Virus record (IMG/VR): IMGVR_UViG_3300007512_000185
Span: 1-25,348 of that record
Length of the DNA: 25,348 nucleotides
Direction: 5' to 3' (one strand)
From: a virus
Positions 8,451 to 14,370 of the stretch are shown piece by piece. Under the pieces are notes generated by a model. It did no database searches and was not told the origin of the DNA. It saw only the letters and a program-made list of their open reading frames with translations. The translations under genes and the position numbers were made by a program. How positions within the stretch are numbered: position 1 is the first letter of the stretch; each line of letters starts with the position of its first letter.

Positions 8451-8476
8451 ATAATATCTAATTATATAATTGTCAA
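8448..8476 (-). promoter_or_regulatory. perfect sigma70-type promoter before gp20
   Basis: On the minus strand TTGACA (8476-8471), a 17-bp spacer and TATAAT (8453-8448) match the bacterial consensus at all 12 positions with ideal spacing. The -35 box overlaps the stop codon of the tape-measure gene. Confidence 0.7.
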
Positions 8477-10944
8477 GCGATTGCCGATTCTACAATTCTG
8501 GTACTAGGTTTATTAAGTTTAGATAAGTATCCTTCTTCAGTATTTCCTAGCTTTCTATCTATTTTTTCTAATAGACGTTTCATTTCTGTCATTGGATTAT
8601 TTAATTCTGCTTGTTTTTGTGCTTCTACTTCTTTTTCTATTTGAATTCGTTTTCTAATACCTTCGGTATCTACCTGAGTTCCCGGAGGGCCTCCTGCAGT
8701 GGTTGTAATCCCCAATGTTTCTAGTAAAGATTTTATAGGTCTAAGACCTGATTCATATGCTGCATCTCCTAGTTGATGCCCGGTAACTCCTCCAACTATA
8801 CTAGCTCCTGGCAGAGGTGCTACTGCGCCTAATAAGGCCCCAATGGCACCCCCACCGTATTCTAATACCAATCTATCTATTAAATCTATTTGTGCTGATT
8901 TTTTTTGAGCTTGTATTTTACTTAACTTGTTTTCTATAATTCCTTTTTCAGGTCCTGATGCTCCTTCTAACATAGATTTTAAATCAGTTTCTCTTTGTTT
9001 AAAACTATCATCTATATTCTGAAACCCAAAATAAGCATCTGTTGCTGCAACTCCGGCACCTAAAATTCCTGTACCTTTTGCGGTTTTTGATGCAAGACCT
9101 GAAGCAAACGATTTTATAGAACTCTTAGTAGGCACTAATTCTGTACCTACTTTCTTAAATTGGATAGCAGTTTTTCCATCAAGTGTAGTAGCAGAATATA
9201 TACCTTTTGTAGGTGTTATTTCTTTTCCGCCTTGCATTACTTTGTCACCTACAATTGATATACCTGAATTACTAAAAACCTTTTGTAATTGTTGACTTGC
9301 ATACATTCCTTGCCCGCCACCCATTTCAAAACCTGCTCGGTTTGCTGCACTAAGTCCTTTTATTCCTTTATAAGTTGAATAGGCGCCGGCGCCTATTGCT
9401 GCACCTCCAAGAACATTCCCTGCACCTAAAGAACGAAGGGCAGATCCTGCACCTTGAATAAATTCAGTTAACCCGTCAGTTACAAATTTTAAAGTATTAG
9501 AAAGAGTATTGGGGTCTAACCCTCCGACAATGTCTCTAACAAATCCTGCAACTTGTCCTTGGGCAGTTGTCATGACTTTATTAAATGCTTCTTCTGTCTG
9601 TAATAATGCAGTTGTACCTTCATCAAATGCTTCTGCGGCATTTTTTATTGTTTCTGCTGGATTTCCTGTCAGCTCTTTAAAATTAATACTCATTTTTCTT
9701 AACAAATCATAACCTTCGCCATCAATACCTGAGGCCAAATTTCCTATATTTTCAAAATCTCCTAATCGTTCTTCTATTGCTTTACCTGCTTTATTTAATG
9801 CTTTAGTTGTTATTAATTGATTTGATATAGACAATGACATGTCACGTAATTGATCAGTTCCTTCGCCGCCGACACTTAATAATTTAGCAACAATAGGATC
9901 TGCTTCAATTCCTCGGCCTGTTTCAATTGATCTAACAAATGCTTCTAATAACATTCCGCCTGTTTCAGTACCAAACATAGCCGGTAGGTCAGTAGATAAT
10001 CTTTTTAAATTTTGTCGTATAATATTTGCTTCTTCTTCTCTACCTTGCAATTCTAACTGTTTTATTTTTCCTAATACTCTTTCATCTTTCTGAGCATCTA
10101 ATGCAGTTTTAATTAAATCTTTTCTTTGTCTACCAGTTTCGAATGCTAATCCTGTAGCTTCGGCAACTAAATTATCAAAAGTTTTAGTTAACCTATTAGT
10201 TGCTTCTTGTCTCGTTGCACCACTTCGCATTTCTGCATCTAAATTATCTGCTAAAAAATCATTTATTTGAGAAATAGTAAGGCCATAATTACCATGAACA
10301 GACATAGATTCTCTAACTTTTTTTGATAAGTCCGAAAATTCTAAGGCTGCTCCTCTACCACCTTTACCTAGAAAATTTAACGCTGCTCCATTTCTTGTAA
10401 TAACTCTTTCAAATTCATTTAATGTCATTTGGTTAGTAGTTAAAGTTTCTTGAGTCTCGAGAATAGATTTACCATATCCATATCCTACTTCTGTTAAATC
10501 TCTAATCGACTTTCTATATTCTCCTAATAATTTTACAGTTCCTTGAAGGGCAGTTGCTAACGGGCCCATATAGTTTAGCACTTGACTCATGTCACCTGCT
10601 CTTAATGCTGCAGTACCACCCTGGAATCCTTTTTTAAGAAAATTTCCTGAAAAATCTCTAAATCCTGCTAATAGCCGAGAAGATAATCTTTGATTATTTC
10701 TATTGGCAATTTGTTGCATTTTATTTTGATTGTTTAAAAGAACATTTCCTCGTTTTTGTTCATTAATAGATTTTTTACCTACATGTTCTACATCTTGTAT
10801 ATTTGAAGCAGTTATTTTACCTATACCTGCCATTCTTTGTATAGCATCAACGGTATCTGATTGCTGAGCAATTAACGCCTGAAGAGTCGAATCTAATGCA
10901 AAATCAGGTATTTGCGGATTTGTTATGTCTACTGAATATGGCAC
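8473..10944 (-). CDS. tail tape-measure-like protein (gp29 analogue)
   Basis: The 823-aa protein is mostly long helices, with Gln/Asn-rich early segments (~65-90) and two hydrophobic Gly/Ala-rich stretches that could insert in membrane: around 505-525 (GNVLGGAAIGAGAY) and around 685-715 (GGGAIGALLGAVAPLPGASI). This design is typical of tape-measure proteins, which fill the tail tube, set its length and reach the host membrane at infection. T4 gp29 is 590 aa. Translation starts at GTG (10944) with AGGT upstream; no better ATG exists near the N-terminus. The divergent neighbour is a gp26-like assembly gene with a frameshift signal, the classic partner of a tape measure. No direct sequence match was confirmed; the call rests on composition and context. 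Confidence 0.7.
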   Translation of the reverse strand: MPYSVDITNPQIPDFALDSTLQALIAQQSDTVDAIQRMAGIGKITASNIQDVEHVGKKSINEQKRGNVLLNNQNKMQQIANRNNQRLSSRLLAGFRDFSGNFLKKGFQGGTAALRAGDMSQVLNYMGPLATALQGTVKLLGEYRKSIRDLTEVGYGYGKSILETQETLTTNQMTLNEFERVITRNGAALNFLGKGGRGAALEFSDLSKKVRESMSVHGNYGLTISQINDFLADNLDAEMRSGATRQEATNRLTKTFDNLVAEATGLAFETGRQRKDLIKTALDAQKDERVLGKIKQLELQGREEEANIIRQNLKRLSTDLPAMFGTETGGMLLEAFVRSIETGRGIEADPIVAKLLSVGGEGTDQLRDMSLSISNQLITTKALNKAGKAIEERLGDFENIGNLASGIDGEGYDLLRKMSINFKELTGNPAETIKNAAEAFDEGTTALLQTEEAFNKVMTTAQGQVAGFVRDIVGGLDPNTLSNTLKFVTDGLTEFIQGAGSALRSLGAGNVLGGAAIGAGAYSTYKGIKGLSAANRAGFEMGGGQGMYASQQLQKVFSNSGISIVGDKVMQGGKEITPTKGIYSATTLDGKTAIQFKKVGTELVPTKSSIKSFASGLASKTAKGTGILGAGVAATDAYFGFQNIDDSFKQRETDLKSMLEGASGPEKGIIENKLSKIQAQKKSAQIDLIDRLVLEYGGGAIGALLGAVAPLPGASIVGGVTGHQLGDAAYESGLRPIKSLLETLGITTTAGGPPGTQVDTEGIRKRIQIEKEVEAQKQAELNNPMTEMKRLLEKIDRKLGNTEEGYLSKLNKPSTRIVESAIA

Positions 10945-10989: not shown

Positions 10990-12027
10990 ATGCCTGAACC
11001 AACAGAAATTCTGAATGAATTTTATGATGCAAAAGAGAGCGACGAAACATTAAAAACATTTATAGAAAAATATAAAGATGTTCCTGAAGCTGAACCAATT
11101 TTAAATACTGCAAAACAAGCCCTTAATAATACTTCAAAACCAGTTACAGATAAAAAAATATCTAATGTAAAATATCGGACTGCTGAAATTCCTAATAATA
11201 CCTCAAATCCGTTATTTCAATATTTTAAACCACCTGGTATTTATGTTAATTTACCTAGTCAAGGTAAATTTTATACAAATAAACCTAAATTAACAGATCA
11301 AAATGAAATATTAGTTAAGGCTATGACTGCAAAAGACGAATTATCATTTAAAGCACCTGATTTATTAATGAATGGTGAATCTTTAATCGAAGTTATTAAT
11401 TCGTGTGTTCCTGATATTGAAGATCCTAACGAAATGCCTAATTGCGATTTTAATATTATTATGTTAGCTATTAGATTAGCAACATATGGTAGCGAACTGT
11501 CGTATTCTGCATTTTGCGAAAAATGTGAGGAATCAAATGATTTTGGAGTTGATATAGAAAGACTATTAGATAGAATAGAACCTATTTCCGATTCTTATTA
11601 TGTTCAACTAGATCAATTAAAAGTATACCTAAAACAATATACACTTAAATCTCAAATTAAATCAGCACTAGCAAGATTTGAACAAGCAACTATAACAAAT
11701 AGTATTTTATCTAACGAAGAACTGTCTCAAGCAGAAAAAACACTAGAATTCAATAAATCTTTTAATGTTCTTGCTAAAATGACTTATGAAGTAGTTCTTG
11801 ATTCTATAATCAAAATCGAAACACCTACAAATGAGATCATAGATAATCGAGAATATATTACCGAATGGCTATATCAAATAGGTAAAAAACATTATGATGT
11901 AATTAGTAATAAATTAGAAGAAATTACAAAAGACGGTTTTGATAACCTAGTAGAATTTAATTGTAATAAATGTAACGAATCTAATAAAGTACCAATAGTT
12001 TTTGATCCTACATCTTTTTTCGGCTAA
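10990..12027 (+). CDS. gp26-like baseplate/tail assembly protein, frameshift donor
   Basis: The 345-aa protein has a T4 gp26/gp51-type core: YVNLPSQGKFY (~86-96), then helical segments with NIIMLAIRLATYG. Two CxxC pairs (CEKCEE ~177-182 and CNKCNE ~331-336) flank a helical region and may bind one zinc. In T4 these proteins help assemble the baseplate hub and act with the tape measure; they are not major structural parts. The N-terminal ~75 residues are a polar, poorly conserved-looking extension. A strong AGGAGG and a perfect late promoter precede it. Near the 3' end is the slippery sequence T TTT TTC (12015-12021), two codons before the TAA, so a fraction of ribosomes should continue into the next frame. 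Confidence 0.8.
   Translation: MPEPTEILNEFYDAKESDETLKTFIEKYKDVPEAEPILNTAKQALNNTSKPVTDKKISNVKYRTAEIPNNTSNPLFQYFKPPGIYVNLPSQGKFYTNKPKLTDQNEILVKAMTAKDELSFKAPDLLMNGESLIEVINSCVPDIEDPNEMPNCDFNIIMLAIRLATYGSELSYSAFCEKCEESNDFGVDIERLLDRIEPISDSYYVQLDQLKVYLKQYTLKSQIKSALARFEQATITNSILSNEELSQAEKTLEFNKSFNVLAKMTYEVVLDSIIKIETPTNEIIDNREYITEWLYQIGKKHYDVISNKLEEITKDGFDNLVEFNCNKCNESNKVPIVFDPTSFFG
12015..12021 (+). other. -1 ribosomal frameshift slippery heptamer T TTT TTC
   Basis: The zero-frame codons are TCT TTT TTC GGC TAA, so the heptamer T TTT TTC is in the correct X XXY YYZ register. A tandem -1 slip leaves both tRNAs on TTT TTT and opens a frame of 76 further codons. This is the classic -1 signal type. Confidence 0.75.
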
Positions 12028-12251
12028 GGCTCTTACGTACACCTCCTGAAAAAATTTATGAGGTTTTAGACGAATTTAAAAAGGATGTAAGGGCCTTTAT
12101 AAAAAGTATAGCAGATATTGTAATTTATAGTGAAGGTTTATCTTATAATGAGGTATGGAATATGAGTTACGAAGAACGAAAAATATTTGTTGAGGTAATT
12201 GAGGAAAAGTTATCTGCCCAATCAGGTAAAAACCAAAATCAATTACTTTAA
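12021..12251 (+). CDS. trans-frame extension (T-like part) of the assembly protein
   Basis: This reading frame (-1 relative to the upstream gene) is open from ~12006 to a TAA at 12249-12251 but has no ATG, GTG or TTG near its beginning. It encodes 76 residues that look real: LRTPPEKIYEVLDEF (~5-19), an IADIVIYSEG stretch (~30-39), and MSYEERKIFVEVIEEKL (~48-64), a helical pattern with codon use like its neighbours. A -1 slip at 12015-12021 would give a 420-aa fusion (344 + 76), as in lambda G/GT tail chaperones, where the longer form recruits the tape measure. An internal ATG (in NMSYEER) would leave only ~29 aa. Its stop overlaps the stop of the convergent HAD gene by 2 bp. Confidence 0.7.
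   Translation, partial: RLRLLRTPPEKIYEVLDEFKKDVRAFIKSIADIVIYSEGLSYNEVWNMSYEERKIFVEVIEEKLSAQSGKNQNQLL
12026..12097 (+). other. stem-loop downstream of slippery site
   Basis: AAGGCTCTTAC (12026-12036) pairs with GTAAGGGCCTT (12087-12097): 11 pairs including one G-U, extendable by G37-U86 and U38-A85. The 50-nt loop contains a second small stem, ACCTC (12041-12045) with GAGGT (12060-12064). Four nt separate it from the heptamer, or six if the terminal A-U pairs open. It fits a stimulator of -1 frameshifting. Confidence 0.65.
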
Positions 12252-12769: not shown

Positions 12770-13100
12770 ATATCATCCTTAACTAATGAGCTTACGCTCA
12801 TTACGATATTTCATTACTTCGTAATTCATATCGATTTATTATTAGTATTTAACTATTTCCTGAGAGTCAAGTCACACTTAGCCTGTTTAAGGCTAAGATA
12901 GCTATTTCCATCGGACATAGCACATTCTAATAGAACAACCTATATAGGTTAAGGCGGTTGGGCTGTACCTCTTTACGTTCTGCTTATACCAACGCAAGCC
13001 TAAGTGAAGCAATTAGAACTACCTCACATGCTTTGCAGGTTCTAATAGTCAAGATTGCCTGCTCATTTTTTCTGCTTTTGCCACGGAGATCCGAACGAGC
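12770..13100. other. 331-bp gap with many hairpins, no gene
   Basis: No credible reading frame on either strand. Inverted repeats: AATGAGC/GCTCATT (12785-12802, loop GTAA on the minus strand), CGATAT...ATATCG enclosing ATTAC/GTAAT (12804-12833), CTTAGCC/GGCTAAG (12877-12897), the perfect palindrome AACCTATATAGGTT (12937-12950), and ATTAGAAC/GTTCTAAT (13012-13046). On the plus strand a GCAGG/CCTGC stem (13035-13063) is followed by a T-rich run at 13066-13071. The stop codon of the nuclease gene at the right edge is also in a hairpin (13093-13110). It may be a structured intercistronic RNA, a small RNA or a degraded gene; no tRNA fold was found. Confidence 0.5.
12842..12870 (-). promoter_or_regulatory. 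possible weak sigma70-type promoter for HAD gene
   Basis: TTGACT (12870-12865), the same -35 as the gp55 promoter, is followed after 17-18 bp by TACTAAT, a poor -10. AATAAATC, one base off a late promoter, lies just downstream. Either could supply the HAD gene. Confidence 0.3.
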
Positions 13101-13652
13101 TTACTCGTTCTCAACCGGTCTTTCGACAATAGGGGCTATCGGTATACCTTGTATTGAAAGGTGTTTCACGGAGCCTTGATTTAGTTTAAAAAAGTCTTTG
13201 TAGCCTGTAATTATCCAATTTTTGTAATTTACATGCCTATGTGTGAACATTGAAATGTTTATGAGTCTTTCTTGGAAGCCTATGTACTTGCCTTTGCGAT
13301 TAAATTTTAGTATCAATAAGTTTAAGTCGTTGTCTTCTGCCACATCTAGTAATTGTTCTATCCATTCGTCTAATAGCCTAACATTGCCTTGGTACAGTAG
13401 TTGATGAAACGGAAAGTCAGCATATGACTTACATTCCACGTTAAAATATTTCCAATCATCGGGTGGTATAATGTCGCCTCTAAAAGATTGAATTTGTCCT
13501 TCAGACAAACGTTCTTTTCTTATTACATTAGTACCGCCTACATATGCTCCCGACGACGGAGTCCTTACGAAACTATCTTCATATAATTCTGAAAGATCTT
13601 TTGCAACTTCTCTTTCAAACGAACTGCCTTTTGTTTTGCTTTTACTCGGCAT
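13101..13652 (-). CDS. PD-(D/E)XK nuclease, Holliday-resolvase-like
   Basis: The 183-aa protein has a resolvase/restriction-type nuclease core: GSSFEREVAKDL (E13 or E15 as first acid, ~9-20), RGD with D60, and NVECKSY with E73 and K75, giving the D...ExK metal site. A basic start (MPSKSKTKG) and aromatic C-terminal half could bind DNA. With gp46 and gp47 in the same operon, a job in recombination or branch resolution (the role of T4 endonuclease VII) is reasonable, but the exact substrate is unknown. Its ATG overlaps the end of the dihydroorotate dehydrogenase gene by 11 bp, implying coupling. The stop codon lies in a GAACGAG/CTCGTTC hairpin. Confidence 0.75.
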   Translation of the reverse strand: MPSKSKTKGSSFEREVAKDLSELYEDSFVRTPSSGAYVGGTNVIRKERLSEGQIQSFRGDIIPPDDWKYFNVECKSYADFPFHQLLYQGNVRLLDEWIEQLLDVAEDNDLNLLILKFNRKGKYIGFQERLINISMFTHRHVNYKNWIITGYKDFFKLNQGSVKHLSIQGIPIAPIVERPVENE

Positions 13653-14370
13653 TCAATATCTTTAATAATTTCCAAGGTGTAAAACATACGGTGCCTAAAC
13701 TAAAATAATCAGCACCCTTGCCTTTGTAATAATTCACAATATCAATGTGATTAATCCCGCCTCCTGCGATAATCTTCACTGAGGGATAATTTGTCTTTAT
13801 GTAATCTATGTGCTTCGTTGTGTAGTTTATCAATTCCTTTCCGCTCAATCCTCCGCCAGTAACTGGCAGGGTGTTGGAGCAGTGGATCTGACCAAACCCA
13901 ATGTCTATTAACCGCTTGATTTCGTCCTCTGTAGATAGGGGCGATATTTTGGCTATACACCATTGTCGTTTGTTATTCCAAAAAGCATCATAAAATTTAG
14001 AAAGTGTTTTATAGTCTACTCCTACTTTATCTACATTAGGGCAACTTAAATTAATTTCTAAATTAACATAATCTGGAATGAGTCCTAAAAATACATTCCA
14101 GTCGTGTTTTTCTATAGCCGCAATACTTATTATTTCACGACCATTATCATTGTACTTATTTAGCCCGTTAACTATGCCTGGATTTCTTAAGCCTAATTTG
14201 TTTACCCAGCCTTTTTTAGTAAAGTCATATCGTAGTGTTTTTATTATTTGCCTTATTAAGCCTTTTCTATATTTTGGTGTAAATGAGCCTCGTACACTAA
14301 TTGCGTTTTTGTGCCTTAAATAATTTCCAAACGGTGCCGCTATAAAAAATTTATTTTGAGCATTATACAT
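13642..14370 (-). CDS. short dihydroorotate dehydrogenase-like flavoprotein
   Basis: A TIM-barrel flavoenzyme of the dihydroorotate dehydrogenase family (dihydroorotate to orotate, pyrimidine synthesis). Visible signatures: AAPFGNYL (~11-18), WVNKLGLRNPGI (~55-66), NLSCPNV with N107 and the class-1-type catalytic base C110, KISPL with K141, CSNT with N166, GGGLSG (172-177), and the FMN phosphate site IIAGGGI (200-206) followed by SLGT (224-227). At 242 aa it is shorter than cellular enzymes (~300-340), lacking N-terminal extensions and some loops; the active-site residues seem kept. It overlaps gp46 by 8 bp (coupled) and is co-transcribed with recombination genes. Likely an auxiliary metabolic gene feeding pyrimidine nucleotides to phage DNA synthesis. 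A relative such as tRNA-dihydrouridine synthase is less likely given NLSCPNV plus GGGLSG. Confidence 0.82.
   Translation of the reverse strand: MYNAQNKFFIAAPFGNYLRHKNAISVRGSFTPKYRKGLIRQIIKTLRYDFTKKGWVNKLGLRNPGIVNGLNKYNDNGREIISIAAIEKHDWNVFLGLIPDYVNLEINLSCPNVDKVGVDYKTLSKFYDAFWNNKRQWCIAKISPLSTEDEIKRLIDIGFGQIHCSNTLPVTGGGLSGKELINYTTKHIDYIKTNYPSVKIIAGGGINHIDIVNYYKGKGADYFSLGTVCFTPWKLLKILNAE

Follow-up and report, generated by a model that had tools for sequence, protein, structure and literature searches.

A putative -1 frameshift site at the 3' end of a gp26-like tail assembly chaperone gene and its conservation among T4-like phages

Background

Does the gp26-like gene of this viral DNA make only the protein that ends at its stop codon, or do some ribosomes pass into the -1 frame and make a longer tail assembly chaperone as well? 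In lambda, the short form of the chaperone associates with the tape measure protein and the long form, the minor one, delivers the tail tube subunits, and this G-T frameshifting was reviewed as widely conserved "except T4" (PMC5009743). The chaperones listed for assembly of the T4 hub include gp26 and gp51 (PMC3004832). A first-pass annotation of the window (the whole stretch of 25,348 nucleotides analysed here) proposed that the gp26-like gene produces a G/GT-like fusion, on the basis of a slippery heptamer, a -1 frame without a usable start codon and a downstream stem. In the present study, we compared this locus with its homologues in viral contigs and phage genomes.

Results

Gene, slip site and -1 frame in the window

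The gp26-like protein matched PF12322 (T4_baseplate) in Pfam (E 2.6e-15, 57.1 bits, cut-off 24.5) and phrog_150 ("baseplate hub") in PHROG (E 5.7e-16), and the AlphaFold model of its 345 residues had a pLDDT of 88. The match of this model to the HK97 tail assembly chaperone 2ob9 was weak (Z 6.1, rmsd 5.0, 99/107 residues), at background level and tied with unrelated entries. The 3' end of the gene reads TCT TTT TTC GGC TAA in the 0-frame; the heptamer T TTT TTC is thus present in register just before the stop codon (12025-12027), as the first-pass annotation had it. The positions of all features are given in Table 1.

Table 1. Positions of the features at and around the putative frameshift site in the window
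Feature	Position	Strand	Evidence
Divergent 823-aa structural protein gene adjoining gp26	8473..10944	-	same neighbour in PA5oct, 121Q, RaK2 and GAP32
gp26-like gene, short tail assembly chaperone (G / TAC-N), 345 aa, C-terminus ...FDPTSFFG*	10990..12027	+	PF12322, phrog_150, AlphaFold model
Slippery heptamer T TTT TTC, in register with the 0-frame	12015..12021	+	sequence; kept in 200/203 homologous loci
-1 frame extension (T / TAC-C domain), 76 sense codons + stop	12021..12251	+	homologous extensions, pN/pS, helical model
4-nt spacer, heptamer to stem	12022..12025	+	
5' arm of 13-bp downstream stem	12026..12038	+	predicted fold; same register with covariation in relatives
Inner hairpin 1 in stem loop	12041..12064	+	predicted fold
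Inner hairpin 2 in stem loop	12065..12080	+	predicted fold
3' arm of downstream stem	12085..12097	+	predicted fold; covariation in relatives

The -1 frame is open from 12006. After a slip at the heptamer, its 76 sense codons (12021-12248) would be read up to the TAA at 12249-12251, and the predicted fusion has 420 aa. The first ATG, GTG or TTG in this frame is the ATG at 12162, 52 codons into the open frame, which has GAGG 8 nt upstream. Translation from this ATG would yield only 29 aa, starting inside the conserved part; thus the earlier description of the frame as lacking a usable start is true of the whole domain. Helices were predicted for the extension (model pLDDT 90). A Pfam search with the extension found no family, and a fold search with its model gave no convincing match (best Z 3.5). 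As a separate observation on the gp26-like protein, it has two CxxC pairs, C176/C179 and C325/C328 (11515-11526 and 11962-11973), which are kept in nearly all jumbo relatives and for which weak zinc-ribbon profile matches were obtained.

Conservation of the heptamer

By tblastn of each half against phage genomes, the same junction was matched in jumbo T4-like phages, and in 17 of the 17 records examined first, including that of SCTP-2, the homologous Phe-Phe is T TTT TTC or T TTT TTT. Viral contigs were searched with gp26 alignments or with one cyanophage gp26. The search patterns were N-terminal or covered the whole protein and the heptamer was not used, so that the collection of loci is blind to it. 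A broad first alignment of gp26 was too divergent as a query, and clade-wise alignments succeeded; the gp26 protein of the window alone gave no matches in the viral contigs, and gp51 proteins as direct queries recovered few loci.

The heptamer was found at the homologous Phe-Phe of gp26 in 200 of 203 loci (195 TTTTTTC and 5 TTTTTTT), which span jumbo T4-like phages, cyanophages, and Vibrio, Aeromonas and Xanthomonas phages. All 81 loci of the cyanophage set have it, as do Vibrio phages Bakedbeans and K571, Aeromonas phage P19 and Xanthomonas phage X1. Because part of the 203 loci are duplicate copies of the same isolate genome, clusters were counted as well, the extensions being grouped at 70% identity into 60 clusters. 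From the codon usage of the same genes, T TTT TTY is predicted in about 14 of the 60 clusters, or 24% per lineage, and among the other Phe-Phe pairs of the same gp26 genes it occurs in 1 of 20. The count of 200 among 203 loci against this expectation agrees with the opinion of the first-pass annotation that the arrangement goes beyond chance. At the gp26 loci, anything between 1 and 11 codons follows Phe-Phe in the 0-frame, while the -1 frame remains open. Close and distant homologues alike keep the heptamer, and the absence from close relatives that had been named as an objection was not observed. As judged from this comparison, the slip site is a real feature: with the T4 group excepted, almost all relatives share it.

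Kamild and Cygsa01 (Ackermannvirus) are without the heptamer and have a TAATG stop-start overlap instead; in Vibrio phage K571, both the heptamer and TAATG are present (TAATG sites, including that of K571: L202 3301-3310, L024 4303-4312 and L203 3334-3343). VPALA has CTT TTC only and not the full heptamer. In S-SCSM1 (L020, 5670-5712), TTTTTTC is kept and about 11 nt inserted behind the stop shift the extension to the +1 frame, which may be either a real change or a sequencing error.

RNA structure downstream of the heptamer

A stem 4 nt past the heptamer was found at the place given by the first-pass annotation; its full length is 13 bp and its loop contains two inner hairpins. The stem region of the window has a minimum free energy of -23.4 kcal/mol (z -3.27), and 1 of 200 shuffled sequences folds equally well. 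For 60 representatives, the mean folding z of the 80 nt downstream of the heptamer was -2.46, versus -0.09 at a control site within the gene. The position of the 3' arm varies by clade. Four clade alignments were picked by the distance to the 0-frame stop and the extension length, or by phage group. The alignment of homologues, proposed earlier as a check, revealed covariation above shuffled and slid controls in four clade-specific stems, the slid control being biased in their favour because the stems were proposed from the same sequences as were tested. The stem of the window type (A6) had a covariation score of 0.250 versus 0.149 for shuffled alignments (0/500), and the cyanophage hairpin (A7) had two-sided changes in 5 of 5 pairs (42 cells, 0/500). 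For the 10-bp (A10) and 8-bp (A11) stem types, the controls gave 0/500 and 1/500, respectively. An Rfam search found no family over the slip site. These predicted stems are candidates for a stimulatory RNA structure behind the heptamer.

Relationship to T4 gp26 and gp51

T4 gp26 and T4 gp51 both match PF12322 and have a weak BLAST match to each other. On the shared family match they are paralogues. The architecture of gp51 is a gp26-like domain followed by the same C-terminal extension, joined in frame. In hhalign comparisons with the C-terminus of T4 gp51, the extensions of cyanophages and other phages gave 97% (E 1e-10) and the jumbo-type extension gave 76%; the jumbo-type extension, to which that of the window belongs, aligned moderately (79%) with the cyanophage and small-phage set. 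In PHROGs, cyanophage extensions matched phrog_634 ("baseplate hub assembly catalyst") and the end of phrog_150, a region likewise matched by T4 gp51. By these profile matches, the -1 extension and the C-terminal part of T4 gp51 are homologues. Since gp51 is a listed hub assembly chaperone, this homology supports the G/GT-like interpretation first put forward. A sequence search of the PDB found no gp51 structure.

The whole genomes of T4, RB43 and Aeromonas phage 31 have two copies of PF12322, and those of S-PM2, 121Q, Atu_ph07, RaK2, K571, P19, X1 and Kamild have one (8 of 8). The window, which is a 25-kb fragment of its genome, contains one copy. T4 gp26 retains the Phe-Phe as TTC TTT, and the heptamer is absent in T4, RB43 and Aeromonas phage 31; the window differs from the T4-type two-gene chaperone in having it at the end of gp26. 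The in-frame fusion occurs only in the T4/RB43/Aeromonas phage 31 lineage, as the second gene copy (gp51), and thus does not expose the frame change in the window as a sequencing error, a point that had been raised against the frameshift. In the tree, T4-type gp26 and gp51 group together in a single clade (95/92), next to which lineages with the frameshift occupy several branches; the deep branches are long. According to this topology, frameshifting probably came first and gave way to duplication in the T4-type phages.

Coding signal in the extension and other explanations of the overlap

In 70 independent pairs, pN/pS for the -1, 0 and +1 frames was 0.23, 1.1 and 1.7, respectively, and in the same order there were 0, 10.1 and 9.1 stops per 100 codons. 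As measured by these substitution patterns, the -1 frame is under purifying selection.

In another explanation, the -1 ORF would be a small gene in its own right, with stop-start coupling or its own start for translation and with no fusion made. The records annotate a separate ORF ("gp51" in cyanophages, "hypothetical protein" in many jumbo phages), Kamild and Cygsa01 have the TAATG overlap and no heptamer, and all cyanophage loci have some start codon within the first 25 codons of the extension. However, among the non-cyanophage loci, 68 of 117 have no ATG and 29 of 117 have no ATG, GTG or TTG in these codons, and a start with a Shine-Dalgarno match was found there in only 11 of 195 loci. The second frame of the homologues is thus generally without a ribosome site, the presence of which had been considered an argument against the fusion. 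The late first start in the window and the two domains of T4 gp51, fused in frame, speak against a separate gene as well, and such a gene leaves the invariant heptamer and the covarying stems unexplained. We therefore consider it improbable that the extension is expressed only in this way. An ATG lies near the junction in many cyanophage extensions and in some others; thus a separate product is possible in such loci, for example in cyanophages.

It is still less probable that RNA polymerase slips on the T6 run (T7 in 5 of 200) and that a mixture of mRNAs gives the fusion. A run of T6 is short for transcriptional slippage. Moreover, C closes the run in 195 of the 200 heptamers, the phase of heptamer and codons is preserved in every case, and this mechanism does not need downstream RNA stems, yet the stems covary. 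A stop two codons past a homopolymer run in an uncultivated assembly might suggest a sequencing error, or the decay of a gene broken by a frame shift, but isolate genomes and about 200 loci show this arrangement too and their -1 frame is under purifying selection, which leaves this a negligible chance, and the conservation of the heptamer refutes it.

Discussion

From the slip site, its conservation, the selection on the extension, the covarying stems and the homology to the C-terminus of gp51, we infer that the gene encodes a short and a long tail assembly chaperone through -1 frameshifting, as does lambda G/GT, with a probability of about 0.93. Most ribosomes would terminate after FFG and produce the short form (gp26, TAC-N). 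A minority would pause at the stem just 3' of T TTT TTC and slip back by one base, with both Phe-tRNAs re-pairing, and reading on in the -1 frame would give the long form (TAC-NC) with the helical C-terminal domain. The slip rate would determine the ratio of the short to the long form. By analogy with lambda G/GT, the short form may coat the tape measure protein and the long form may recruit tail tube subunits. The likeness to lambda is one of analogy; in the present loci, the heptamer is T TTT TTC/T and the stems differ by clade. In T4, RB43 and Aeromonas phage 31, the same two forms would come from two gene copies, gp26 and gp51. The T4 pair (PF12322, phrog_150/phrog_634) shares with the window the homologous short form and C-terminal domain, but consists of two genes and has no heptamer.

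The first-pass annotation knew of no described case for T4-type gp26/gp51 genes. In this respect it has to be corrected, as far as can be told from the papers that cite Vladimirov, Gautam and Davidson (Virology 2022;566:9-15). Their study treats the same subject, the T4-like TAC-N/TAC-NC proteins (gp26/gp51) as short and long copies, and its title stresses a mechanism other than frameshifting. According to the PRFect paper (PMC10885494), which cites it, some T4-like phages have short and long fused chaperone genes in place of frameshifting; according to PMC12846349, which also cites it, poly-T -1 signals are known in T4-like TAC-N genes. Going by these citations, the frameshift principle in T4-like chaperone genes is already published (2022). 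We also dropped the idea that T4 gp26/gp51 as short and long forms is new, in view of these citing papers. A related case is the chaperone of Vandenendeviridae and Andersonviridae (PMC12846349), with a poly-T -1 frameshift at the 3' end of the gene and an invariant GTTTTT, where the downstream ORF is likewise misannotated as a separate gene; the phage families differ. In a full-text literature search, at the level of titles and opening lines, no article describing frameshifting at gp26/gp51 in jumbo phages or cyanophages was found. With the core idea in print since 2022, the present study adds breadth, RNA evidence and re-annotation, not a new principle; the breadth of the heptamer and the covarying stems may be new.

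Tentatively, and with slightly less than even confidence in the whole, we suggest that -1 frameshifting at gp26 is both the original mechanism of the T4 superfamily and the one used by most of its members, among them the jumbo phages and the cyanophages in which gp51 is annotated separately, that each clade has its own covarying stem behind a nearly invariant T TTT TTC G, that T4 is the exception in which duplication replaced recoding, and that this breadth and the clade-specific stems have not yet been described.

The "-1 ORF" is more than a junk overlap, and what is annotated as "gp51" in cyanophages probably does not stand as a gene of its own. The examined phage records list gp26 and the extension as separate genes or miss the extension; the long chaperone form is likely missed or misnamed in hundreds of deposited phage genomes. 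The heptamer with a stem, the TAATG overlap and the two genes of T4 make a natural series for studying how phages set the ratio of the chaperone forms. Furthermore, this set of loci offers a testable role for the essential, poorly understood T4 gp51.

Neighbourhood of the gene in the window

The 823-aa protein encoded next to gp26 had no Pfam match and no significant PHROG match. In the record of RaK2, the corresponding neighbour of gp26 is likened to a tape measure protein; by its position, the 823-aa protein is a candidate for the tape measure. Elsewhere on the minus strand, a gene for a structural or fibre-like protein with long SGTSGTSG repeats lies at 1-1636, and a second frame of the same strand is open across the repeat. 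About 330 nt at 12775-13100 (minus strand), flanked by the genes of a PDDEXK-type endonuclease (13104-13652) and a nucleotidase-like protein, appear non-coding; they fold better than shuffled sequences (z -3.26), with no tRNA and no Rfam match. At 13645-14370 (minus strand), a dihydroorotate dehydrogenase-like gene (PF01180, E 1.2e-11) lies in the phage structural region and is possibly a metabolic gene.
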